This document shows, piece by piece, positions 3,430 through 41,938 of a stretch of 41,938 nt of DNA (positions are counted from its first letter, which is position 1; the number at the start of each line of letters is the position of its first letter). The notes under the pieces were generated by a model. That model ran no database searches and was not told where the DNA came from. It was given only the letters and a program-made list of their open reading frames with translations. This DNA comes from a virus. The stretch is taken from IMG/VR virus record IMGVR_UViG_3300039449_000043, positions 1-41,938 of that record. One strand, written 5' to 3'. A program made the translations under genes and the position numbers.

Positions 3430-3774
3430 TCGGGTTTTGTACCCTGAAAGCTTAGCTTGGGTGTCAATCGCATTGAGCAACCCTTTTTCAAAGCTTACGT
3501 TCACTCTCTCGACTTTCGACAAGTTTGGAATAAAGGGAACCGCCATAAGGTAGGCCCCCTCTGCAAGATCCTCTTTTGCCTCAAGTCTGATGGCTTCAAT
3601 GCCTCGTGCCTCTGTGATCTCGTGACTATCTGCAAAATAGTCGTCAAGCGCGGCAATCGCGTTTTGCAAGATGTCTGCTGGATCATCAGCGGCAGCAAAG
3701 CAGCCGGGCACATCGGGAAAGTGAACGCCAGTTGCGCTACCTTCCTCGTGATGCACTACGGCTATATAGTTCAT
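3370..3774 (-). CDS. hicB: HicB-family antitoxin
   Basis: Antitoxin that binds HicA and represses the operon. The 134 residues carry the family's two parts. The N-terminal partial RNase H-like fold starts YIAVVHHEEGSATGVHFPDV, with FPDVPGCFAAADDPADIL as the family hallmark. The C-terminal ribbon-helix-helix DNA-binding segment reads VERVNVSFEKGLLNAID and extends to about KTRSAFLAMAARKEI. A Shine-Dalgarno AGGATG precedes ATG 3774. It lies downstream of hicA on the same strand with a 105-nt gap that contains a strong hairpin. In a prophage, HicAB is normally a maintenance or anti-phage module. Which of the two applies here cannot be read from the sequence. Confidence 0.92.
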   Translation of the reverse strand: MNYIAVVHHEEGSATGVHFPDVPGCFAAADDPADILQNAIAALDDYFADSHEITEARGIEAIRLEAKEDLAEGAYLMAVPFIPNLSKVERVNVSFEKGLLNAIDTQAKLSGYKTRSAFLAMAARKEIEQTRESA

Positions 3775-3869
3775 GGGTCATCCTTTCTCTCCTATTGCCT
3801 CGCCCTGGTCTTGAGGATCGGGTTTGGCCTTGCTGTTGAGCGAACAGCTTATCTCTCTCCTTGGTGCCG

Positions 3870-3894
3870 GTGGGCTGGATTAAATCCAGCCCAC
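3870..3894 (-). promoter_or_regulatory. Perfect palindrome over the hicA stop codon
   Basis: Arms GTGGGCTGGATT and AATCCAGCCCAC around a single central base, including the last hicA codons and its stop. In the hicA mRNA this folds into a very stable hairpin with no U tract. It lies between the toxin and antitoxin cistrons and could set their ratio by attenuation or as an RNA-processing or stability element. The role is inference. Confidence 0.6.
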
Positions 3895-4065
3895 TTGCTT
3901 TGCTATGGCGCGGGCGGTGCCGGTTGGCAGATCCCGCTTGGGGTGTGGAACGATCACCGTTTGCTCACCTTTGCGCAGCTTCACGTGGGATCCTCTGTGG
4001 TGGATCTTGGTATAGCCTTGCTCGATCAGTTTCTTGATGATCTTCTTACTGTTTCGCTCGATCAT
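3880..4065 (-). CDS. hicA: HicA-family toxin (mRNA interferase)
   Basis: 61 residues from ATG 4065. An upstream in-frame start at 4083 lies inside the operator palindrome and is less likely. The dsRBD-like fold of HicA is recognisable: IERNSKKIIKKLIEQGY, then the catalytic loop HHRGSHVKLRKG with the active-site His at about residue 27, then VIVPHPKRDLPTGTARAIAK. HicA binds and cleaves mRNA in the cytoplasm and is neutralised by HicB encoded immediately downstream. Size and motif order are typical. No damage is seen, so the toxin should be active. Confidence 0.93.
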   Translation of the reverse strand: MIERNSKKIIKKLIEQGYTKIHHRGSHVKLRKGEQTVIVPHPKRDLPTGTARAIAKQVGWI

Positions 4066-4082
4066 GTGTATACTGATACACA
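4065..4082 (-). promoter_or_regulatory. hicAB operator palindrome
   Basis: Inverted repeat TGTGTAT-ACTG-ATACACA whose left arm includes the first base of the hicA start codon. It also contains a GTATAC sequence usable as a -10 element. HicB ribbon-helix-helix proteins bind such palindromes, so autorepression at this site is the simplest reading. Confidence 0.6.
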
Positions 4083-4430
4083 CAATGCGGAGTTAACGCA
4101 AGGATCGTGTGTAGTATTTTACACAAAATACCCGTCATTTTGGTGAACTATAGAACTTAGGCCCTGTTTCTAGCTAAGGCTCAGACTTTCAATAGCATTT
4201 TTTATTAGGCGCAGGTGGAATAGCACCAGGGCCGGGTTTGCCTTACGCTCGCGTGTTTAAGCACAGGCATCCGCTAACAGGAAGCGGCAGGAAGGGCGGA
4301 AAACCGACCTTCGCTGCAATCGGAACCAATGACTGCAATGCGGTGTTGTATCTTGTGGTCCGCGCAATGTTCTTGCCGCCAATAGCACTTCAGTGTCATC
4401 TGCCTTTTGATGAGTTCGAAAGGATGTGAA
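4083..4430. other. Intergenic region between hicA and the metalloprotein gene
   Basis: About 350 nt without a convincing gene. The first part must hold the leftward hicAB promoter. No clear sigma70 promoter for the rightward gene at 4431 stands out. The Shine-Dalgarno GAAAGGATG lies just before its ATG. Short open frames here lack ribosome sites and protein character. Composition is AT-richer than the phage core, as in the gene that follows. Confidence 0.5.
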
Positions 4431-5768
4431 ATGCCATTCATTGAAAGTTCCGTACATACTTTTACCCAGGCCCAGAAAGAACAGCGACAGTTGCAAACGG
4501 CCACTTTTCCCAACCAAATTTCTGCTGGTTCATTTACCCCCCATTCAACGATAGTAGAAGTGGGCTGTTTTCAAACGAAACGTGTTAGAGACGCCCTGGT
4601 AGCGGGAGATTTGATGCCCGTTAGACATGACCTTCAGGTCCTTTGCCATGAGATGACCCACTGGTTTGACTTCTTTGGAACTGTCTGGGGACGAGAGTAT
4701 ATTGGGTCAATTTGTCGTGCCTACCGTGCATTAGAGCGTCGCGTTGAGACAGAGTTTCCGAATATCATAAATCTCTTCGATAAAGATCGCCGAGTACTCT
4801 CCCCGTCATATTATCGCTTCTCCACCGCTCCCTCTGCCTCGCATAGTAATGCAAGGCCATGGACAATCGACTATGTCTCAGGTGCAGAAATTGATCCAGA
4901 CGGAAGTGTCCGCGAAGACAAGCCGATATTCATGGCGCGATATGGCGAAAATCCTTCGAGAAGGAACTTTGCTAGGCAACCGGTTTCTGTGGGGGCATTG
5001 CTAGAGGTACGGGCGATAGCGGCGGAGATCGGAACAGCCGTCGCCGCGATTAACTCACACCCCGAAGAGGGTCCTCGAATTGTAGAAATGCATCTTGCCA
5101 ATGGTGAGTTCAATGCTTTGGCTTACAATCACGACCTGATCGAATACAATACAGCTGCACACATTCTTTCAATACAATCGGGATCTAAGGAGTTATTTCT
5201 CAGCAGTCGTTTGGCCGCCGCATTGGCGTTTATCGCCTTAAACATGACCGAAGGTGACTTCAAAAAACTGAAGGAGCCAAAGAGTTTTCAAAAATTCGGA
5301 AAGCGAAACAAAGCATTCAAACAGAGGCAAGATCGTGGATATGCTTTTGTTTGTATGGTTTTCAACGGCGGGAAGTTTGACGGTGATGAGGTTGAGTATG
5401 TTGAACGTTGTGTCTCGGCCTCTAATCTCGGCTCAACCTCGGGCATTTTGAAACGAGCGGTAGAAGAGCTAAGTTCACCAATCTGGTTTTCAAACGGGAA
5501 CATTACTACGGATCATTTCTCTCGTGAATCTGCGGTGAGTAGGCATATTTTGGAAGCTCATTGTGAGTTGCCTCAATATGTCACCACGCTGACATCACTG
5601 ATGTCTGACTTACGGATGGTTTGTCCTCCATTTATGGACGCGGATGCAAACTTTGTTGAGCTAAATGAAGGTCGATTGGATGAATACCGGCCCGGCATGA
5701 TGCATGACGCCTCCCATGCCCTGCATGACTACACTCGCAATCTTTTGACAGGATGCAGGGGTGTTTAA
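4431..5768 (+). CDS. Predicted HEXXH zinc metalloprotein (moron)
   Basis: 445 residues from ATG 4431, chosen for AAAGGATG just upstream. The motif LCHEMTHWFDFFGTVWG (HEMTH at residues 73-77) is a canonical zinc-protease helix. ALLEVRAIAAE near residue 192 could supply the third Glu ligand as in gluzincins. No signal peptide or membrane segment is visible, so it should be cytosolic. I do not recognise a named family. The gene is visibly AT-richer than the structural genes, stands alone between divergently placed hicAB and the convergent 5837-6325 gene, and is not needed for a lambda-like phage. These are the marks of a lysogenic-conversion or defence gene. Substrate and activity are unknown. 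Confidence 0.75.
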   Translation: MPFIESSVHTFTQAQKEQRQLQTATFPNQISAGSFTPHSTIVEVGCFQTKRVRDALVAGDLMPVRHDLQVLCHEMTHWFDFFGTVWGREYIGSICRAYRALERRVETEFPNIINLFDKDRRVLSPSYYRFSTAPSASHSNARPWTIDYVSGAEIDPDGSVREDKPIFMARYGENPSRRNFARQPVSVGALLEVRAIAAEIGTAVAAINSHPEEGPRIVEMHLANGEFNALAYNHDLIEYNTAAHILSIQSGSKELFLSSRLAAALAFIALNMTEGDFKKLKEPKSFQKFGKRNKAFKQRQDRGYAFVCMVFNGGKFDGDEVEYVERCVSASNLGSTSGILKRAVEELSSPIWFSNGNITTDHFSRESAVSRHILEAHCELPQYVTTLTSLMSDLRMVCPPFMDADANFVELNEGRLDEYRPGMMHDASHALHDYTRNLLTGCRGV

Positions 5769-6335: not shown

Positions 6336-7382
6336 TTACTTTAGGGCGCGCAGGCTTTGGGGGTGATGGTTTTGCCCTCTGCGATAGTCCCAGCCATGAT
6401 CAATAAGGCGCTCGGCAAGGTCTTCGGGGGCAATTTTCCTGTAGATGTTTGCGGTGTCGGCATCGGCCCATCCGCCAAGATCTAAAAGCTTTCCAAAGTC
6501 TTTGGTTTGTGAATAAAACCATGTTGCCCATGTGTGCCTGATGGTGTGCGGTGTGACCTTGCGGGGGCCGCTCTTTTCAAGCCCTGCGCGATCCCTGGCC
6601 TTGTTAAAAGCGGTTTTGATTTGCCCGCCTGTGTTCTCGCGCTCAGCATATGGATTTCCGCGCGAGGTCAGAAAGATTGGGCCGCAATCTGGCAAGCCCC
6701 CGGTGCACATCATTTGCAGGGCGCGCTCTGGATATTCCACCATACGTGGGTGCCCGTTCTTGGTGTCTATCAGGTATGCTTGCCGCGTGTTGTGGTGGAA
6801 GTTCACGGCTTGAATTGAAAGAGCTTCCTTTACCCTTGTGCCGGTGCCGATCATGCACCCTATGATTTTGCTAAGGTGTGGCGGCAGCTCTGCCGAAAAG
6901 CGTTCAAATTCTTCTGGTGTGAGCCAGCGCGTGACCTTTGTGTCAACCTTGCGCCGCCTCAGTTTCTTTGGGTCGCATAGCCCATCCTCTGCCGCCATAT
7001 TTAGGATGGCGGAAATTGGCCCGATAACCTGCCTGTTGATCGTGGCGGGCGCGGCTTTCGGAAAAAGCTTAGCGGTCAACGCATTGATTTCGGCGTTGTC
7101 GATCTGGCTCAGTTTCTTGCCTTGGAGCTGCAATAGCAGATCAGGTAGAAACCGCCCTTCTCCCCCGGCCATCAAGTAATTTATGGCAGCTTCTTCAAAC
7201 GTCGCGGTTGCTTTCTTTCCAAGGGCAGCGCGTTGCAAGATTTCCGCTTCGGTCCTGATGCGGATGGCTTCGGCGGCTTTGCGGTTGCTAGTCTTAGTGC
7301 TTTCTCTAACTGCGACCCCAGCAACGGTGCCGTGGATGTGCCAGTTGCCGCCGGGTTTCCTTTGGATACATTTGAGGGGCAT
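6336..7382 (-). CDS. int: Phage tyrosine integrase
   Basis: Site-specific recombinase that inserts and excises the prophage, presumably at the tRNA-Thr site. 348 residues. The N-terminal arm-binding part is MPLKCIQRKPGGNWHIHGTV, the core-binding domain covers about 60-140, and the catalytic domain follows. Visible catalytic residues are Arg183 (GTGTRVKEALSI), Lys208 (DTKNG), His279-x-x-Arg282 (TPHTIRHTW), Trp305 (GGWADADTANIY) and the nucleophile Tyr314. The start at 7382 has AAGGA 9 nt upstream and lies inside the preceding excisionase-like gene. It lies 3.6 kb from the left attachment site, with accessory genes in between. Confidence 0.95.
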   Translation of the reverse strand: MPLKCIQRKPGGNWHIHGTVAGVAVRESTKTSNRKAAEAIRIRTEAEILQRAALGKKATATFEEAAINYLMAGGEGRFLPDLLLQLQGKKLSQIDNAEINALTAKLFPKAAPATINRQVIGPISAILNMAAEDGLCDPKKLRRRKVDTKVTRWLTPEEFERFSAELPPHLSKIIGCMIGTGTRVKEALSIQAVNFHHNTRQAYLIDTKNGHPRMVEYPERALQMMCTGGLPDCGPIFLTSRGNPYAERENTGGQIKTAFNKARDRAGLEKSGPRKVTPHTIRHTWATWFYSQTKDFGKLLDLGGWADADTANIYRKIAPEDLAERLIDHGWDYRRGQNHHPQSLRALK

Positions 7383-8228: not shown

Positions 8229-8564
8229 CTATTTTCTTTCCGACTCCATAAAGGCTGCTAGGTCGGCCTCGTCCAGGCGGTCTACAAGCTTGGCTAGTCG
8301 GATGCGTGCGGGTGATAGCTCTCGGTCTGAAACGATAAGTGAGAGCGGCATTCCAAGGACTTCGCAGGCTGAAATGATGTTCGCGAGATTGATCATAGTT
8401 TCGCCTCGGCAAAATTTCCCCAGGACGTTGGGGCTCATGCCTGCTGCCTCAGAAAGCCCGGTTTCGCTGTAACTGCTCAATGCAATCGCGATCCTCATAT
8501 TTATTCGCGCGTTTTCGATCTGTCTTGAAGCCTCTGGGCTTAGCTCGCGTTTTGTCTTGGCCAT
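8229..8564 (-). CDS. XRE-family phage repressor (CI-like)
   Basis: 111 residues. A helix-turn-helix fills residues about 22-75: ENARINMRIAIALSSYSETG, LSEAAGMSPNVLGKFCRGET as the turn and recognition helix, then INLANIISACEVLGMPLSLI. The C-terminal third (ARIRLAKLVDRLDEADLAAF) is a likely dimerisation helix. There is no S24 peptidase domain, so RecA-stimulated self-cleavage as in lambda CI is not expected. Induction would need another route. The gene is transcribed leftward, divergent from the early operon at 8755, and its upstream region is packed with copies of the AACACCTTA palindrome. It is therefore the best candidate for the protein that binds them. Confidence 0.85.
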   Translation of the reverse strand: MAKTKRELSPEASRQIENARINMRIAIALSSYSETGLSEAAGMSPNVLGKFCRGETMINLANIISACEVLGMPLSLIVSDRELSPARIRLAKLVDRLDEADLAAFMESERK

Positions 8565-13485: not shown

Positions 13486-15333
13486 TTAACTAGCCGAAGT
13501 TTTCCAGTTTTCATAAGCCCGCGGAACCATTGATATCTGGTCGTCTGGAACCCGCGCGCCATCTTGGTCTAGAATATACTCGCCATTCGGGTGCCTAAGA
13601 AAGACGGTGTTGCCGCGCTTGTCGATACCAGAAGTAACCGGGGCGCACATAAAGACCTCGCCGCTGGTATCAACAATGCCCTTTTCTGCATCCAAGTACT
13701 CTTGATGCGTGAATTTTTGAACAATCAAAACGCTCGGATTATTGACGCCCTTGTTGCGACCGAAGGTCTCTTTAGGAAGATCAATGGAGGCTACGACCTT
13801 TGAGCGCCTTAGCAGCCAGTCCCGTAAAAAAGCCAAGCCGGGGTTGTTCAAAATACCATCAGGAATTACGACCCCAAGAAAGCCCCCGGGCTTAAGGAAG
13901 TTGATCCCGGTTTCCATAAATAGTTGTTCCGCAGGCATCATCGTGCGTCTATTTTCAGCCCCCCATTCTGCAAGTTGATACTGGGATAGGACGTGAGCAT
14001 CATCAACTCTTACTTCATCACCGAACGGAGGGTTTGTAATCACTACATCCATAGAACCAAACGGCACGTTCTGTCGTGCTTTTTCAGGCCACTCACCCGG
14101 ACGCAACAAGGAGCTAGCACGATGAACGTTGGTAGAGCCATCGCCGTGCATAACGAGGTTCATTTGTGCGGTCCGCACGAGGAAAGGATTGATGTCTAAA
14201 CCGTACAAGCTTTGCCCGCATATTTGTTTGATGCGGTCTCTCACGCGCATCGTTGGATCTGTGTTTCCACGTTCCAATTCTTGCGCAACGAGCTTTTTTC
14301 GCAGGTTGTCGATCCAGGAAACAAGAAATCCACCCGTTCCGCAACAGCAATCAATCACCTTGACAGTGCTCAATTCGGTGTCCTTGAAATTGTTCATGAT
14401 TATTTGAACGGTCATATCGCAAACGTTTCTTGGGGTGAAATATTCCCCTCTATCGCCTCGTAAATTTGCACCAACAAGCGTTTCGTAAGCTTCGCCTTTT
14501 ACGTCTGTTGCGCTGTTCAGAATGGAAATGAATTGCAACTCTCCAACCACATACGCGGCAACCGATGGTTCCAGTTTAATTGTCTCATCTTCAAGGAAGA
14601 TAAATGGGTAAGCTACCTTTACGTGCTCAAATAGTGGCTTAAGTCGATCCTCGACTAATTTACGTTGACCACCGATCGACTTTTGTTCAGCGGGAGACAC
14701 AGAGAAATCCAACTCTATGCCACCTTCCTGCTCATCGTAGGTTTTGCAAAATATGAGCTTGAGCATTTCGTGAAATGCCTCGGCCTTTTGAAGACCGCCA
14801 TTCGCATGAATATAATTGTGACATCGCCTGAAAACTGAGGTCAACTCATGCACAATGCGAAGGTCCGTCCGGCGAGGGCGGCGGGGGGAATCATCTCCGG
14901 CTCTCGGTATGTCGGCTACCTGCTCAACTGAAGAGTCCTCATTTTTCTGGTATCCCCGCATCTCTTGGCCAACCCAAAGGCCAAATTTTGCTGGGCAGGC
15001 AGCTAAATAGCTAATGAGTTGGCCATCTCCGTCTTTTGCGTCTGATGGTTTAATATCGTCTCGTTTGACCTCTATGCAGATCGCAATGTTTTCCTGTTTA
15101 TGCTCTTGTCCTGACCGAAAAATGGTAAGGTCACACTTTTTTGTAGCCCTTCCCATCTTGATGCTAGTTTCTACACCGATATCTGACTTTGAGTAGCCGT
15201 AGTCATCAACCAAAGCTCTTGCCCATCGCTGGCGGACGTTCTCTTCAGGGGTATCCTTTCGCAAGGCGCCAGTAATGAAACACAATACCTTGCCCGGTGG
15301 AATTAAGGGTATAATTTTATTAACTTCAGCCAT
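13486..15333 (-). CDS. Fused PD-(D/E)XK nuclease and N6-adenine methyltransferase
   Basis: 615 residues from ATG 15333; ATG 15336 is the alternative. The N-terminal about 130 residues match the HSDR_N-type nuclease fold: ETSIK (Glu55), CDLTIF (Asp68), CIEVKRDD (Glu88, Lys90), then GQLISYLAACPAKFGLW. An HsdM-like helical part and methylase follow: YFTPRNVCDMTV, motif I VIDCCCGTGGFL (about 328-338) and motif IV VITNPPFGD. No helicase motifs exist. One chain with nuclease and methylase plus a separate specificity protein is the layout of BcgI-like (type IIB/IIG) enzymes. It lies on the opposite strand to the replication operon, starts inside the end of the specificity gene, and is AT-richer than its neighbours, so it is imported cargo. 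Confidence 0.85.
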   Translation of the reverse strand: MAEVNKIIPLIPPGKVLCFITGALRKDTPEENVRQRWARALVDDYGYSKSDIGVETSIKMGRATKKCDLTIFRSGQEHKQENIAICIEVKRDDIKPSDAKDGDGQLISYLAACPAKFGLWVGQEMRGYQKNEDSSVEQVADIPRAGDDSPRRPRRTDLRIVHELTSVFRRCHNYIHANGGLQKAEAFHEMLKLIFCKTYDEQEGGIELDFSVSPAEQKSIGGQRKLVEDRLKPLFEHVKVAYPFIFLEDETIKLEPSVAAYVVGELQFISILNSATDVKGEAYETLVGANLRGDRGEYFTPRNVCDMTVQIIMNNFKDTELSTVKVIDCCCGTGGFLVSWIDNLRKKLVAQELERGNTDPTMRVRDRIKQICGQSLYGLDINPFLVRTAQMNLVMHGDGSTNVHRASSLLRPGEWPEKARQNVPFGSMDVVITNPPFGDEVRVDDAHVLSQYQLAEWGAENRRTMMPAEQLFMETGINFLKPGGFLGVVIPDGILNNPGLAFLRDWLLRRSKVVASIDLPKETFGRNKGVNNPSVLIVQKFTHQEYLDAEKGIVDTSGEVFMCAPVTSGIDKRGNTVFLRHPNGEYILDQDGARVPDDQISMVPRAYENWKTSAS

Positions 15334-16156
15334 CATTAATAATCCCAGACAGGTCAAACAGTACATTGTTCATTTGCTTGACGCCATTACTTCGCATCTT
15401 GTCTGCTTTTGCCGCTGATTTTGAAATTTTCAACATCGCATCATAATCAAGCCGAGGAACCATGCAAGATGCTACTTGATCGCCAGTGACGTGATCAATT
15501 TGCCCACCGTGGGTGTGACTCAATATCTGTATTTGCGCAAAACTTGATGCAAGATAGGCGCGTAAGAACCCCTTTAATTCAGGCTTATGTGGCGTTATTC
15601 GGACTATATCATGGGTTCCAGCCCAGCCATCCAAGTCGGGAGGTACATCAAATACTCTGCCGATTGTGCCAGAGCATGTAACCAGGATCATTTCTTTTTT
15701 GACTATCAGGGGGGCCATCTTCACATTCGAGGCTCGCGAAAGATAGCGCTCTTGCGCCGGTACACCTAAAGCGAAATAACTCATCAGATCGGTAGCGTTC
15801 AAATACGGAATCCCATACTTTGAATCTTGCGCCCAAATCCGCGTGAACATGCTAGGAAGTGAAACATCGGCAAAGTCTGCAAGGGGCGCTAGGGGCACTC
15901 CTAATGCGCTTAGCTGAGCGGTATTCTCCATGACGGCGGGATCATAGTGCTCCGCGTCCATGCGCTTGCCAGACTGTGTAGCTATATCACTAACGGACAC
16001 GCCCCATCCTGAGGGGGTCGTCAGTTTTGAAATGAGGTCAGCATGATCGGGCATCGTTAGCTGTTCAGAACTTGTCTCATCAGCCTTTAGTACCGCGCCA
16101 ATCTGATCGTCAAAACTGGCGTTTACCGGATCAATCAAATTCTCGTTATTTGGCAT
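15326..16156 (-). CDS. Restriction-modification specificity (S) subunit
   Basis: 276 residues from ATG 16156 (GGGAG upstream). After a poorly conserved leader, KRMDAEHYDPAVMENTAQLS and VPLAPLADFADVSLPSMFTRIW start a target-recognition domain. It continues with GIPYLNATDLMSYF, ILVTCSGTIGRVF, GTHDIVRITP and LRAYLASSFAQIQILSHTHGGQIDHVTGDQV, all characteristic of HsdS-type subunits, then a helical end. Only one recognition domain is present, half of a classical HsdS but similar in size to BcgI-type B subunits. It would direct the fused nuclease-methylase encoded just downstream. The two genes overlap by 8 nt. Confidence 0.85.
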   Translation of the reverse strand: MPNNENLIDPVNASFDDQIGAVLKADETSSEQLTMPDHADLISKLTTPSGWGVSVSDIATQSGKRMDAEHYDPAVMENTAQLSALGVPLAPLADFADVSLPSMFTRIWAQDSKYGIPYLNATDLMSYFALGVPAQERYLSRASNVKMAPLIVKKEMILVTCSGTIGRVFDVPPDLDGWAGTHDIVRITPHKPELKGFLRAYLASSFAQIQILSHTHGGQIDHVTGDQVASCMVPRLDYDAMLKISKSAAKADKMRSNGVKQMNNVLFDLSGIINDG

Positions 16157-16385
16157 CTGCAATAGGCTCCCTGTAAGTCAAGCGCTTACCCTGCATCTTG
16201 TCGATTGTCCCGCCAATAAATGCCATTGTCCCAACTTTCGAAGTGTTGTGGCGATGTGAGAACACATCAACATAGCGGCGCAAGTGCTTTTCGCTCTGGC
16301 AGCGGTACGGGTTACATTGGATTGCGGCTGATCGCGTAAACTCAAGCGCCGCCTCAACTCGTGGCGGCGCTGTCTCCTGCCTTCC
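16146..16385 (-). pseudogene. Transposase C-terminal fragment (IS1595/ISXO2-like)
   Basis: An open frame without a proper start runs from a stop at 16386-16388 to TAA at 16146-16148. Its translation SEKHLRRYVDVFSHRHNTS, then GGTIDKMQGKRLTYREPI, resembles the C-terminus of IS1595-family transposases, where a (Y/F)xFRYNxR-type segment precedes a GKRLTY motif. The DDE core is absent. It lies directly upstream of the specificity gene and overlaps its first codons. A 9-bp perfect hairpin (AGCGCCGCC/GGCGGCGCT, 16345-16371) lies at the other end of the fragment. It suggests transposition delivered or trimmed the cargo block. Confidence 0.55.
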
Positions 16386-37688: not shown

Positions 37689-37779
37689 GTTTGGCCTGCC
37701 TGCATATCGTTCTGGTCGTGGCGGGATTGCCAAACTGAAAATCTAACTCTGTTGATGTGCGCCTTTGCGCATCTGTCTT

Positions 37780-37806
37780 GCCTGCCTTTTGGTGGGCTTT
37801 TTTTGT
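37780..37806 (+). terminator. Terminator between tail and lysis genes
   Basis: Stem GCCTGCC / GGTGGGC (37780-37786 / 37791-37797) with one non-canonical pair, followed by seven T residues (37798-37804). A second hairpin GATGTGCGC/GCGCATC lies just upstream. The lysis gene may rely on read-through. Confidence 0.75.
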
Positions 37807-37820
37807 GGGAAATGGAAATC

Positions 37821-38573
37821 ATGAAACTTGTGGAAAATTGGGGTTCTATCCTCTCTGGGGCTTGGTCTGTTCGCCTGATGATCGTCGCGGCTTTTTTCTC
37901 TGCTTTGCCTGTCTTCTTTGGCTTGGTTAGTGCTGATATGCTCGGTGTGGATCCTGTCTATTTTGCTGCGGCGGCTGCGGTAGCAAGCGCCCTGGCTGTG
38001 ATCGCTCGTATTGTCCAGCAGGTCGCCATTTCTGGCGCGGTGCGTCATTTTCGGCGTGATGAGAGCGGTGCGATGCGGGTGCGTAAACGCACCCTTGCCG
38101 GATCCTTTGCAGTTCTCGCAATCGCAGCCGCCCCCTTTGTGGCTCAATGGGAGGGGCTGCGCACGCAAGCCTATCAGGATGTCATTGGTGTTTGGACGGT
38201 ATGCTTTGGCGAAACTAAGGGGGTTTCGCCGGGTGATGTTTACACTGTGGCGGAATGTGAGGGGATGCTTGATGAGGAGTTGCAGCGGTACGCTGTGGCT
38301 CTTGGCAAGTGCCTCAAGGCTTCTTTGCCTGAGGGCGCGGCTGTCGCCTTCCTGAGCTGGTCTTACAACGTCGGAACCGGCGCGGCTTGCCGCTCAACTC
38401 TTGTGCGCAAGGCTAACGCTGGTGATCTGTTCGGGGCTTGTGATGAGCTGTTGCGCTGGAACCGTGCCGGGGGGCGTGTGGTGCGCGGCTTGGTCAACCG
38501 GCGCAAGTCTGAGCATGAGCTTTGCATTGGCTCTTTGGTCGCGGCGGGCCTGCCCCGTTCAGGCCGGGGGTGA
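37821..38573 (+). CDS. Holin-like domain fused to GH24 endolysin
   Basis: 250 residues from ATG 37821. MKLVENWGSILSGAWSVRLM is the typical start of a small alphaproteobacterial phage holin-like protein, with two membrane helices at about 19-36 and 47-63 (VYFAAAAAVASALAVIARIV). After FRRDESGA comes MRVRKRTLAGSFAVLAIAAA, itself like the signal-anchor start of a SAR endolysin (hydrophobic 92-108). Next is a lysozyme domain with the GH24 triad Glu111, Asp120 and Thr126 in WEGLRTQAYQDVIGVWT, and LSWSYNVGTGA. The frame has no break. An in-frame ATG at 38073 (Met85) would give the endolysin alone. Confidence 0.88.
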   Translation: MKLVENWGSILSGAWSVRLMIVAAFFSALPVFFGLVSADMLGVDPVYFAAAAAVASALAVIARIVQQVAISGAVRHFRRDESGAMRVRKRTLAGSFAVLAIAAAPFVAQWEGLRTQAYQDVIGVWTVCFGETKGVSPGDVYTVAECEGMLDEELQRYAVALGKCLKASLPEGAAVAFLSWSYNVGTGAACRSTLVRKANAGDLFGACDELLRWNRAGGRVVRGLVNRRKSEHELCIGSLVAAGLPRSGRG

Positions 38574-38581
38574 CAGTCTAA

Positions 38582-38848
38582 ATGGTGGCCTTTCTGCGTG
38601 TCCTGAGCGCCCGCCCTGCCTTGCGGCGGGCGTTTCTGATTGTGGTGGCTGGTCTCGCCCTTTGGGGTTCGGTGTCGGCCTTCATTTCAAGTGAGCGAGC
38701 TGATGCGGCGGATGATTTGCGCCGCGATCTGGATGCTCAAAAAATCCAAGAGGTGAAAGATGCAATCAAGCGTTCTGCGCCGGGGCCTCGCCCTGGCCGC
38801 TCTGAGTTTCTTGACTGCCTGCGCCGGGCCGGACCGGGCTGTCTTTGA
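38582..38848 (+). CDS. Inner-membrane spanin (Rz-like)
   Basis: 88 residues. A membrane helix near residues 17-37 (AFLIVVAGLALWGSVSAF) is followed by a charged helical periplasmic part (SERADAADDLRRDLDAQKIQ, EVKDAIKRS). The C-terminal 29 residues share DNA with the outer-membrane spanin gene, which starts at 38760 in another frame. The protein is shorter than lambda Rz. It should bridge inner and outer membranes with its partner in the last step of lysis. Confidence 0.75.
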   Translation: MVAFLRVLSARPALRRAFLIVVAGLALWGSVSAFISSERADAADDLRRDLDAQKIQEVKDAIKRSAPGPRPGRSEFLDCLRRAGPGCL

Positions 38849-39014
38849 TGCGGCGGCGGTGCCTTTGCCGCCCCGCTATACGGCAGATTTCAAGCGAGGG
38901 CTTGCGGCTGAACTTGATGCCGCCCCGCGCTCAGATTTGATTGTGCAGGCGCTTACGGATGCCTCGCAATTTTATGGCCGCATTCGGCGGTTAAAGGGTG
39001 GAAAATCAGAATGA
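38760..39014 (+). CDS. Outer-membrane spanin lipoprotein (Rz1-like)
   Basis: 84 residues. The signal peptide RRGLALAALSFL ends in the lipobox LTAC (cleavage before Cys21), then AGPDRAVFDAAAVPLPPRYT, a Pro-containing linker, and a helical end with QALTDASQFYGRIRRLKGG. GAGGTGAAAG precedes the ATG. It overlaps the inner spanin by 89 nt in another frame, the usual overlapped Rz/Rz1 architecture. The stop overlaps the A1-like gene start (ATGA). Confidence 0.8.
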   Translation: MQSSVLRRGLALAALSFLTACAGPDRAVFDAAAVPLPPRYTADFKRGLAAELDAAPRSDLIVQALTDASQFYGRIRRLKGGKSE

Positions 39015-40693
39015 AAAGTCAACGTAAAACCGGGGCGCGAGATCCGGCCCGTGCGCAGCGCATCAAAGACGCCCTTGAGGCGGCGTTGAGGGCTGGTTTT
39101 GACCCCTTTGGGGATCCGCGCGGCGGCAAGGGTTCTTGCGTGCCTGAGGCGGCGCGCAAGCTCACGCAAAAGGGCTATGAGACAACTGAGCGCATGGTGC
39201 GTGGGTTCCTCAAGACGCAGGGCGATGCTGAGGCTCGTGGTGATGATCATTTCATGCCTGATTGGGATCTGTTCGCGCGCCCTGGTGCGCCTGCTGCTGC
39301 GATCCGTAGGGGGGAGGTGCGGCGCTGGATTTTGACAAGCGCGCAGGATGATACGGACGTGCATTTGCGCTTTTGGTCAAACCTGCAAGCCTATGGCCGC
39401 CATGTCGGCGCAGAGGTTGTGGTTGGTGGCTTCACCTATAATCATGGGCTTTTTACAGATCACCAAACCCGCACGGCTCAATTTGCCCGCGAGGTCTTGC
39501 CGCATCTGCGATTTGATCCAATGGATTGCGGGCCGGTGTTGTTCTGCGCTGAAATGAATACCCTGCCAACGGCGGTGCGCCCGCTGAGTGGCCTGACAAC
39601 TTACGCCCAGGGGCGCACGGCGGTTTTTCCGCACGCAAAACTTGCCTTTGAAAGTGTGCCTGCCATGCCGGGGAAGTTCGTGCCATCGGTCATGACAACG
39701 GGCGCTTGTACCGTGCCAAACTATGTGAAGAAAAAGGCGGGGCTCAAGGCTGAGTTTCACCACGTTTTAGGGGCCACTATCGTTGAGGCTCGTGAGGATG
39801 GGAGTGCATGGGTTCGCCAGATCTCGGCAACCAATGATGGGGCGTTTCAAGATCTTGATGCTGTCGTGCGCTCTGGTCGCATCAGTGTTGGGAACCGCGT
39901 CAAGGCGGTGACGTTTGGTGATATTCATATCCCTAGCCTCGCTGATGATGTTTTTGATGCGCTTTGGGGCGACCATGCAGATAGCTTGATGAGTGTTCTG
40001 CGCCCTGAATATCAATTTATTCATGACCTGATGTCGTTTGAAATGGCCTCGCGCCATGTGGATGGCGATCCTATTCACCGTGCGCGTATGGATGCTGCCG
40101 GGCATTCTGGCATTCGCTGGCAGGTTCGCGAGGGGGCAAAATTCCTGCGCGCAATCGGGCGGGATACTTGCCGCACGGTGATGATCGAAAGCAACCATGA
40201 TGATCGCTTGATGCAATGGGCGCGGCGTGATGCTGATCGCATGGATACCGGCAACGCTGAATATTGGCATGAGTGCAATCTTGCCCTCTTGCGGTCAATC
40301 CGTGAGGGCGCTGAGGGCTTCAATCTGTGCCGTTGGGCTCTCAAGCAAGAGGATGTGCGCCAGCTTGAGGGGATTGATTTTGTTCCTATGGGTGGTTCTT
40401 TCGTGATCTGCCAAGATAGCGGCGGCATTGAATGCGGGATGCACGGCCATCAGGGTCCCAACGGGTCGCGGGGCACGGCGGTTGGTCTCGCCAAGATGGG
40501 CACGCGGCTCACGATTGCAGACAAGCATTCGCCTCAGATCCTTGATGGTGTCTATATCGCCGGGATGTCTGGGGATCTTGATCAGGGGTACAATAACAGC
40601 CCGTCAAGCTGGCAGCGCTCGCATGTTGTCACTTATGCCAATGGCAAGCGCACCTTGATCACGCAAACGCCTTGCGCGCGGTGGCGGGCATGA
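39011..40693 (+). CDS. Phage T5 A1-like metallophosphoesterase
   Basis: 560 residues. The C-terminal two thirds carry calcineurin-like phosphoesterase residues: VTFGDIHIPSL (Asp304, His306), IESNHDDRLMQW (Asn395, His396, Asp397), and CGMHGHQGPNGSRGT (His478, His480). The N-terminal part has a possible HTH (GSCVPEAARKLTQKGYETTE) and a region FWSNLQAYGRHVGAEVVVGG. Overall it resembles the T5 A1 pre-early protein, needed for host DNA degradation and shut-off. It should be a Mn-type DNase or phosphodiesterase. Here it lies at the end of the lysis segment. The resemblance was read from motifs, not computed. Confidence 0.75.
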   Translation: MKSQRKTGARDPARAQRIKDALEAALRAGFDPFGDPRGGKGSCVPEAARKLTQKGYETTERMVRGFLKTQGDAEARGDDHFMPDWDLFARPGAPAAAIRRGEVRRWILTSAQDDTDVHLRFWSNLQAYGRHVGAEVVVGGFTYNHGLFTDHQTRTAQFAREVLPHLRFDPMDCGPVLFCAEMNTLPTAVRPLSGLTTYAQGRTAVFPHAKLAFESVPAMPGKFVPSVMTTGACTVPNYVKKKAGLKAEFHHVLGATIVEAREDGSAWVRQISATNDGAFQDLDAVVRSGRISVGNRVKAVTFGDIHIPSLADDVFDALWGDHADSLMSVLRPEYQFIHDLMSFEMASRHVDGDPIHRARMDAAGHSGIRWQVREGAKFLRAIGRDTCRTVMIESNHDDRLMQWARRDADRMDTGNAEYWHECNLALLRSIREGAEGFNLCRWALKQEDVRQLEGIDFVPMGGSFVICQDSGGIECGMHGHQGPNGSRGTAVGLAKMGTRLTIADKHSPQILDGVYIAGMSGDLDQGYNNSPSSWQRSHVVTYANGKRTLITQTPCARWRA

Positions 40694-41304
40694 TGTCCGC
40701 GATTTTCGCCGGGGCGCTCGCAAACTGGCTTGCGGGCGTTCTCTCGTGGGTCACGGCGCGTCTGTTGCGGCTTATTGGGCGCGCCCCGGCCTCAGTGCAG
40801 CGCCCGCCCTCGCCCTGGCTCGCGGGCTCAACACACCGATGGCATACAAATCCGGCTTTCTGCGCGTCTGGGGATCGTGTTGATGGGCATTCTTGCCGGG
40901 TCGCAATCCTCATCATGCAATTCATGCCCGATGCCACGGCTGAGCTTTTACGCGCGGCCATCGTGCATGACTTGGGTGAGAATGCGGTTGGTGATCTCGC
41001 CTCGCCGGTCAAGCGGAAAAACCCGGATCTTTATGCCGCCGTTGATGGGCTTGAGGGTGATGCTTTGCGCGCAATGGGTTTTGACATCCCTGCGCACGTC
41101 TTGGGCGCGCGTGATAGGGCGGTTTTGCACCTCTGCGATGGTCTTGACGCCTATCTTTGGGCGGTGACGCATCGCCCTGACTATGTGCGCGCCCGCGCCG
41201 ATTGGCGCGCCATGTTTGCCCGGCTGCAATCCCGCGCCGATGCACTTGGGCTGCGCTGGAAATTCGATGAAATTGTTGAGGGGGTTTGTGATGGCAAATT
41301 CTAA
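40690..41304 (+). CDS. HD-domain nucleotidase (YfbR-like)
   Basis: 204 residues from ATG 40690, overlapping the A1-like stop. A hydrophobic N-terminus (FAGALANWLAGVLSWVTARL, residues 6-25) may anchor the protein. The HD domain follows: HRWHTNPAF, then VDGHSCRVAILI (His67), AAIVHDLGENAVGD (His93-Asp94) and LHLCDGLDAYLWA (Asp150). The RWHxxP start and H...HD...D set match YfbR/5'-deoxynucleotidase-type HD enzymes that dephosphorylate dNMPs. Adjacent to an A1-like gene it recalls T5, in which A1 works with a deoxyribonucleotidase (Dmp). Confidence 0.8.
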   Translation: MMSAIFAGALANWLAGVLSWVTARLLRLIGRAPASVQRPPSPWLAGSTHRWHTNPAFCASGDRVDGHSCRVAILIMQFMPDATAELLRAAIVHDLGENAVGDLASPVKRKNPDLYAAVDGLEGDALRAMGFDIPAHVLGARDRAVLHLCDGLDAYLWAVTHRPDYVRARADWRAMFARLQSRADALGLRWKFDEIVEGVCDGKF

Positions 41305-41938
41305 GTGCAAGCGCTGCAAGGGTTTTGGCGTGCATGATTGGGCTCACCTTGGACTTGATGAGTGTGAGGTTTGCAGTGGGTCGGGCATATCGCCTTTTAT
41401 GGTCGATCTTTGTGGCTCTGTGCGCCTTTTGGTGATCGGGGATGGGCGGCACGGCAAGGATAGCGTTGGTGAGATCTTGCGCGATCAATATGGGATGCGC
41501 AGTGTATCTAGCTCAGAATTTGCCGCACAAAAGGCGGTGTTTCCGTTGGTGTCTGATCTCTATCCTGATTGGCGTGCTGCCTATGAGGATCGGCACGCGC
41601 ACCGCGATCTCTGGTTTCACGCGATCAGGGCTTACAATTTGCGCCCTGGCAGGATGCTCGCTGAGCAAATTCTTGAGGCGAATGACATCTATACCGGGAT
41701 GCGCTCGCGTGCTGAGTTTGAAAGGTCGCGCAGCCTCTTTGATCTGGTGGTTTGGGTTGATGCCTCTGGGCGGTTGCCGCCTGAGCCGCGCGCTTCAATG
41801 GAATTGACCGCTGATGATGCGGGTTGGGTGATTGATAACAATGGCCCTCAGCACGCCTTGCCGGGTGAGGTTGGTAAGTTGATCACTCGCATAACAGATG
41901 ATTGGGTGTTGTCGGATGCTTTCGCGCGCCACGGTTGA
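41291..41938 (+). CDS. dNMP kinase with DnaJ-type zinc motif
   Basis: 215 residues from ATG 41291, overlapping the HD gene by 14 nt. The N-terminus has two CxxCxGxG motifs, CKRCKGFG (6-13) and CEVCSGSG (25-32), a half DnaJ-type zinc centre. The kinase begins with LLVIGDGRHGKDSVGEIL (P-loop 50-57, Lys56), where Asp follows Lys as in T4-type deoxynucleoside monophosphate kinases, and continues with SSSEFAAQK, YEDRHAHRDLWFHAIRAYN, MRSRAEFERSR and LFDLVVWVDASG. It should recycle dNMPs to dNDPs for phage DNA. Its stop is the last base of the window. Confidence 0.85.
   Translation: MANSKCKRCKGFGVHDWAHLGLDECEVCSGSGISPFMVDLCGSVRLLVIGDGRHGKDSVGEILRDQYGMRSVSSSEFAAQKAVFPLVSDLYPDWRAAYEDRHAHRDLWFHAIRAYNLRPGRMLAEQILEANDIYTGMRSRAEFERSRSLFDLVVWVDASGRLPPEPRASMELTADDAGWVIDNNGPQHALPGEVGKLITRITDDWVLSDAFARHG

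Follow-up and report, generated by a model that had tools for sequence, protein, structure and literature searches.

The integrated prophage of a marine bacterium in IMGVR_UViG_3300039449_000043 (a single record of 41,938 bases, here called the window, with host DNA at its left end) closes at its right end with three intact genes on the same strand, overlapping head to tail, which code for a homologue of the phage T5 A1 protein, an HD-domain protein and a protein resembling deoxynucleoside monophosphate (dNMP) kinases. The new finding is that, across distantly related phages, the gene immediately downstream of A1 codes for a dNMP kinase more often than random placement would predict. The parts of this cassette are known and their arrangement is new, carriage of A1 by temperate phages is common, and it is the kinase that is the constant partner. 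We propose, with a probability of about one half for role and element taken jointly, that the cassette belongs to a temperate siphophage of the Rhodobacterales and serves, through late expression, to break down host DNA and recycle its nucleotides. No description of A1 and a dNMP kinase as a unit was found in our collection of papers, which is incomplete and holds no preprints.

The genes concerned, with the lysis gene that precedes them, are:

38760-39014, plus strand: Rz1-like lipoprotein gene, recognized by its coordinates and a lipobox-like start
39011-40693, plus strand: A1-like gene, 560 amino acids
40690-41304, plus strand: HD gene, 204 amino acids from its ATG (the listed TTG start at 40672 gives a longer open reading frame, ORF)
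41291-41938, plus strand: kinase gene, 215 amino acids, with its stop on the last base of the contig

Association of A1 with dNMP kinases

Among 50 A1-bearing contigs, 16 encode a kinase of the Pfam family DNMK, and in five of these 16 the gene is the immediate downstream, same-strand neighbour of A1, where random placement that preserves strand would give 0.83 (P about 0.0003, an approximate value since related contigs are not fully independent). DNMK is also the commonest Pfam family just downstream of A1 beyond the lineage of the window (6 of 125 ORFs), and it is absent among the families listed for an equal control sample taken 4.5-8 kb away, where 25 of the 52 families are listed and at most one match could be hidden. 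Within the lineage, defined by an A1 at least about 60% identical and comprising 13 prophages or contigs (a near-identical pair among them), the window-type kinase follows A1 in 11 members and a canonical DNMK occupies the same slot in Rhodovulum marinum, which brings the kinase to 12 of 13. The HD gene is present in five (the window, Pseudosulfitobacter pseudonitzschiae, L003, L005 and Pseudophaeobacter leonis), and in the remaining members its slot holds a DUF7220-type membrane protein or an SSB, or is empty. A near-constant kinase beside an optional HD gene favours salvage as the core function, and lends no support to the decision between salvage and waste that the original prediction had read into the trio. 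The same gene-neighbourhood comparison shows that A1 does not always occur without the HD and kinase genes, a pattern which the original prediction had named as speaking against it.

The original prediction had also regarded the pairing of A1 with a deoxyribonucleotidase on a lambda-like prophage as no system known to be described, but the presence of A1 on temperate phages is not new. An integrase scores above cut-off in 18 of the 50 contigs, some of which may include host DNA, and the Rhodobacter phages RcCronus, RcSaxon and RcRhea (Cronusvirus), which are predicted temperate siphophages, carry an A1 homologue; the annotation of RcCronus has a "T5 A1-like" gene, located after the tail genes, and also a dNMP phosphatase. 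These phages differ from the window phage in having an SSB after A1, the phosphatase in the replication module, a predicted plasmid prophage and no adjacent kinase. In a search of 395 genomes from the family to which P. pseudonitzschiae belongs, A1 was found in only 2, which means a low prevalence there. An SSB gene after A1, directly or past a small membrane-protein gene, is seen in L006, L008, L013 and L016 (RcCronus), and is a second recurring neighbour from DNA metabolism.

The A1-like protein

The identification of the 560-residue protein as a T5 A1-like phosphoesterase was borne out. It matches PHROG 1745 ("DNA transfer protein") with E=6.9e-153, and its alignment with T5 A1 shows 36% identity over 482 columns (BLAST, E=7e-91); a Pfam search was silent, and phmmer and a profile search of PDB sequences gave nothing useful. 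A structural model built from 78 homologues (mean pLDDT 89.6, pTM 0.80) replaced a poor 13-sequence AlphaFold model (pLDDT 65), and in it the protein is a three-helix N-terminus, which looks like a helix-turn-helix (HTH), followed by a calcineurin-type metallophosphoesterase (MPE) fold. When the model was compared with viral models by Foldseek, the top matches were A1 homologues, followed by calcineurin-like phosphoesterases (E to 8e-8). Among PDB structures, coherent matches were weak even at best (E 0.02-0.05), namely the phosphodiesterase SapH and DP1, the Mre11-like exonuclease subunit of DNA polymerase D. The motifs of the MPE site are:

39917-39928, plus strand: MPE motif I, GDIH (D304, H306), invariant in 78 of 78 homologues
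40025-40027, plus strand: bridging aspartate D339, invariant in 78 of 78
40190-40204, plus strand: motif SNHDD, with N395 and H396 invariant in 78 of 78
40436-40450, plus strand: motif GMHGH, with H478 invariant in 78 of 78
40517-40528, plus strand: last motif ADKH, with H506 invariant in 78 of 78 and D504 in place of the usual GHxH histidine

Residue 504 (window 40520-40522) is His in 59 of the 78 homologues and Asp in 19, the latter falling in several branches that include the lineage of the window. The two-metal site of a phosphoesterase is therefore complete in this protein, with a single conservative substitution. The protein may act as a DNase.

In T5, A1 is a pre-early gene in the DNA of the first-step transfer. 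The A1 gene of the window lies after the lysis genes and beside attR; the pre-early position is a feature of T5 and not of the wider A1 protein family.

The kinase

The third protein matches the dNMP kinase family PHROG 139 (1.9e-6) and has a P-loop:

41438-41461, plus strand: P-loop of the kinase, GDGRHGKD

In an hhalign comparison with the DNMK proteins that adjoin A1 elsewhere, it gave a probability of 92.8 and E=4e-7. Its relatives reach 0.0076-0.027 against the DNMK Pfam model, and one fused to ThyX reaches 2.2e-5 with 24.6 bits, below the cut-off of 27.1. This fusion is found in roseophages of the Schitoviridae, where the window-type kinase domain forms the N-terminal part of a 472-residue protein (L133:2474-3892) whose C-terminal part is a ThyX thymidylate synthase (E=1.2e-50); it suggests that the substrate of the kinase is a deoxynucleoside monophosphate, perhaps deoxythymidine monophosphate. 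Shewanella phage KASIA carries both an A1 gene and an annotated dNMP kinase 47% identical to that of the window, the two genes lying on one strand with about 5 kb between them. Unlike the window phage, KASIA is virulent, and the genes lie in a replication module with a ribonucleotide reductase and with no HD neighbour listed in that stretch. Taken together, we regard the window protein as a divergent dNMP-kinase-like P-loop protein with predicted catalytic activity.

The N-terminus of the kinase (window 41291-41400) has CxxC pairs resembling a zinc ribbon. They are also found in L003, L022 and, with fewer cysteines, L029, and are missing in the other members.

The HD protein

The HD protein passes the cut-off of the Pfam YfbR-like family (PF12917) with 29.0 against 25.9 bits. 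Both nucleotide-enzyme neighbours named in the original prediction, the HD dNMPase-like and the dNMP-kinase-like protein, are supported. YfbR-like matches occur in 14 of the 50 A1-bearing contigs, five of them above cut-off. The HD motif lies as follows:

40966-40971, plus strand: HD motif of the HD protein, H93-D94

Identity with E. coli YfbR is about 23%, and the catalytic His, HD, Glu and Asp (H67, H93-D94, E97 and D102) are invariant between the two proteins, which also have a GD..PVK motif in common. The best match in a PDB search was the dATPase DatZ, as close as YfbR. On these similarities the protein is probably a YfbR-like 5'-deoxynucleotidase, for which a dNMP is a likelier substrate than a deoxynucleoside triphosphate (dNTP).

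The original prediction had likened the HD gene to the deoxyribonucleotidase that accompanies A1 in T5, and homology between the two we reject. T5 Dmp has a HAD-type DxDGT (DLDGT) motif, shows no BLAST match to the HD protein and does not match the YfbR-like family; the likeness is therefore one of kind of activity only, and "T5-style" is an analogy. A 2-aminoadenine (DatZ/PurZ) system, raised by the DatZ match, was likewise set aside: no PurZ-like protein or DNA polymerase was found among the window ORFs that were scanned, a part of the whole set.

The HD protein of P. leonis (L029:419-1030) reads HDLGA, Ala replacing the conserved Glu that follows the HD motif, and its activity may be reduced. 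The HD genes of the window and P. leonis have 93% similarity, against 75-88% for much of the flanks, which suggests local exchange.

Expression and selection

The three overlapping genes recognized in the original prediction are real. The A1 start lies four bases inside the Rz1-like gene, the HD start four bases inside A1, and the kinase start inside the HD gene. The ratio of nonsynonymous to synonymous substitution (dN/dS) across relatives is 0.02-0.09 for A1, 0.16-0.43 for HD and 0.11-0.24 for the kinase, well below 1, so all three genes are maintained by purifying selection. A promoter and terminator scan of the cassette gave no usable signal and no separate promoter-like site, with a consensus that may not fit this alphaproteobacterial host. 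The overlap with the lysis genes, the lack of a promoter-like site and the end beside attR suggest that the cassette is probably expressed late.

Proposed role and alternatives

In T5, A1 is reported to be indispensable for degrading host DNA and, together with A2, for the second step of DNA transfer; Dmp is reported to aid the breakdown of nucleotides that come from the host (PMC13250531). T5 (Demerecviridae) resembles the window phage in its A1 homologue with the same catalytic motifs, and in a 5'-deoxyribonucleotidase gene (Dmp) near A1 on the same strand. It differs in being virulent, in its pre-early genes, in the HAD-type motif of Dmp and in the absence of a dNMP kinase beside A1 in the T5 stretch read; no counterpart of A2 or of two-step injection was seen in the window phage. 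Another parallel is Gp48 of a mycobacteriophage, a metallophosphoesterase with DNA-degrading activity in vitro that also breaks down host DNA in vivo (PMC12287305). It belongs to another phage and is expressed early, and is likened to A1 by its described activity, not by sequence comparison.

In our proposal A1, as a two-metal phosphoesterase, would start or carry out the breakdown of host chromosomal DNA, and the dNMP-kinase-like protein would channel the dNMPs so released back into the dNTP pool during synthesis of the last phage genomes. The HD protein, where present, would dephosphorylate a subset of the dNMPs and so clear unwanted nucleotides or trim the pool. To our knowledge, the way in which T5 A1 destroys the host chromosome has stood biochemically unresolved for decades. 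The A1 fold, the metal ligands that do not vary and the repeated presence of a kinase partner offer a testable reading, in which a salvage kinase takes up the products of the phosphoesterase. Small temperate prophages of this type are found in the Roseobacter group bacteria P. pseudonitzschiae, Leisingera daeponensis and P. leonis and, if inducible, would be easier to work with than T5. If A1 is a late DNase, the main question becomes how phage DNA is spared. Late deployment from the lysis operon would require the phage to have such a means. A wider generalization, which we hold only tentatively and would not expect to be correct as it stands, is that tailed phages share a conserved and mobile module for recycling the host genome, made up of A1 and a dNMP kinase, which temperate alphaproteobacterial phages deploy late from the lysis operon, not pre-early, so that these phages must have a way to spare their own DNA.

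Several points weigh against our proposal. A paper of 2021 notes that no nuclease activity has been reported for A1 and doubts a DNase role for the KASIA homologue (PMC8541194). One metal ligand of A1 is D instead of H; the window kinase misses the cut-off of Pfam DNMK (PF21448), giving no match to that model and none above cut-off to any other in Pfam, and the substrates of both kinase and HD protein are predictions. In many phages, genes of nucleotide metabolism are grouped with those for replication, and the association of A1 with kinases may be partly generic. The late timing rests on gene overlap, and an unspecific late DNase would threaten the phage's own DNA, for whose protection a mechanism can only be presumed.

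An unlikely alternative, yet the one that fares best, is that A1 acts mainly by binding host RNA polymerase or by aiding DNA transfer or packaging, and breaks down little DNA. Reports on T5 A1 describe binding to RNA polymerase (PMC8541194) and a need for it in second-step transfer, the KASIA paper prefers an RNA polymerase role, and in some alphaproteobacterial phages the gene lies among head and tail genes. Catalysis is nevertheless implied by metal ligands that, with one exception, are invariant in 78 homologues, the exception being His or Asp. No counterpart of A2 or of two-step transfer was seen in the window phage, and the repeated pairing of A1 with dNMP kinases also speaks against such a role.

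It is rather improbable that A1 is a phosphodiesterase that destroys the cyclic-nucleotide alarm signals of host immunity (the cyclic-oligonucleotide system CBASS, or type III CRISPR) while its neighbours tidy up nucleotides. Action on cyclic nucleotide signals has been predicted for T5 A1 orthologues (PMC7824862), and the fold is compatible with it, SapH being a phosphodiesterase; set against this are the reported need for T5 A1 in host DNA degradation, and an HTH-like N-terminus and DNA-metabolism neighbours (dNMP kinase, SSB) that suit DNA better.

We give similarly little credence to a moron set acting against superinfecting phages or in the physiology of the lysogen. The cassette occupies the stretch from the lysis genes to attR, where accessory genes are commonly found; its middle slot varies, and the HD gene seems to have been exchanged locally. 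This reading sits poorly with the four-base overlap of A1 with the Rz1-like gene, the absence of a separate promoter-like site (although alphaproteobacterial promoters may be missed) and the strong conservation of A1 in the lineage; PADLOC gave no match for the A1, HD or kinase proteins. Least probable of all is that A1 and unrelated nucleotide genes piled up by chance where the late operon ends, for while the HD gene is optional and each gene is also found alone, two kinase families share one slot and the adjacency of A1 and kinase exceeds chance in distant phages.

The prophage and its host

The features that define the element are:

889-2193: histidinol dehydrogenase gene, in the host flank
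2645-2693: attL core, 49 bp (near-)identical to part of tRNA-Thr(GGT)
6336-7382, minus strand: tyrosine integrase
8229-8564, minus strand: probable repressor (weak match)
37752-38573, plus strand: endolysin (phage lysozyme) with an N-terminal holin-like stretch

Further marker genes code for an SSB, primases, a terminase, a portal, a tape measure and a tail-fibre-type protein; the product of the Rz1-like gene has no family match. The original prediction spoke of a lambda-like prophage. Integration and a temperate life style are upheld by the integrase and attL, and "lambda-like" applies loosely, to the integrase, repressor, terminase, portal, tape measure and lysozyme. In L003, L. daeponensis (L022) and P. 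leonis (L029), a tRNA-Thr(GGT) gene lies 188-191 bp after the stop of the homologous kinase gene. The 49-bp piece of this tRNA in the window therefore marks attL and makes the kinase the last phage gene before attR, which is predicted just past the end of the record; the late-end map position originally assigned to the cassette, after the lysis genes and beside attR, agrees with this. The related prophages L019, L020 and L013 have tRNA-Ser(GCT) beside the cassette, not tRNA-Thr, which indicates that the cassette keeps its right-end place despite another integration site. The P. leonis contig also contains the histidinol dehydrogenase region, at 80% DNA identity to the window, which places the host, a relative, within the Roseobacter group.

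Between attL and the integrase, two plus-strand ORFs (3457-4146 and 4407-5768) had no significant match in Pfam, PHROGs, PADLOC or NCBIfam. On the minus strand, 13486-16162 encodes a fusion of HsdR-N with an N6-adenine methyltransferase. It resembles MAD2, the methyltransferase of the MADS defence system (NCBIfam 7e-144, short of that model's cut-off), and is accompanied by a MAD5/type I specificity-like gene; the methyltransferase could mark phage DNA. A transposase (rve) fragment lies at 230-550 in the host flank, adjoining the histidinol dehydrogenase gene.

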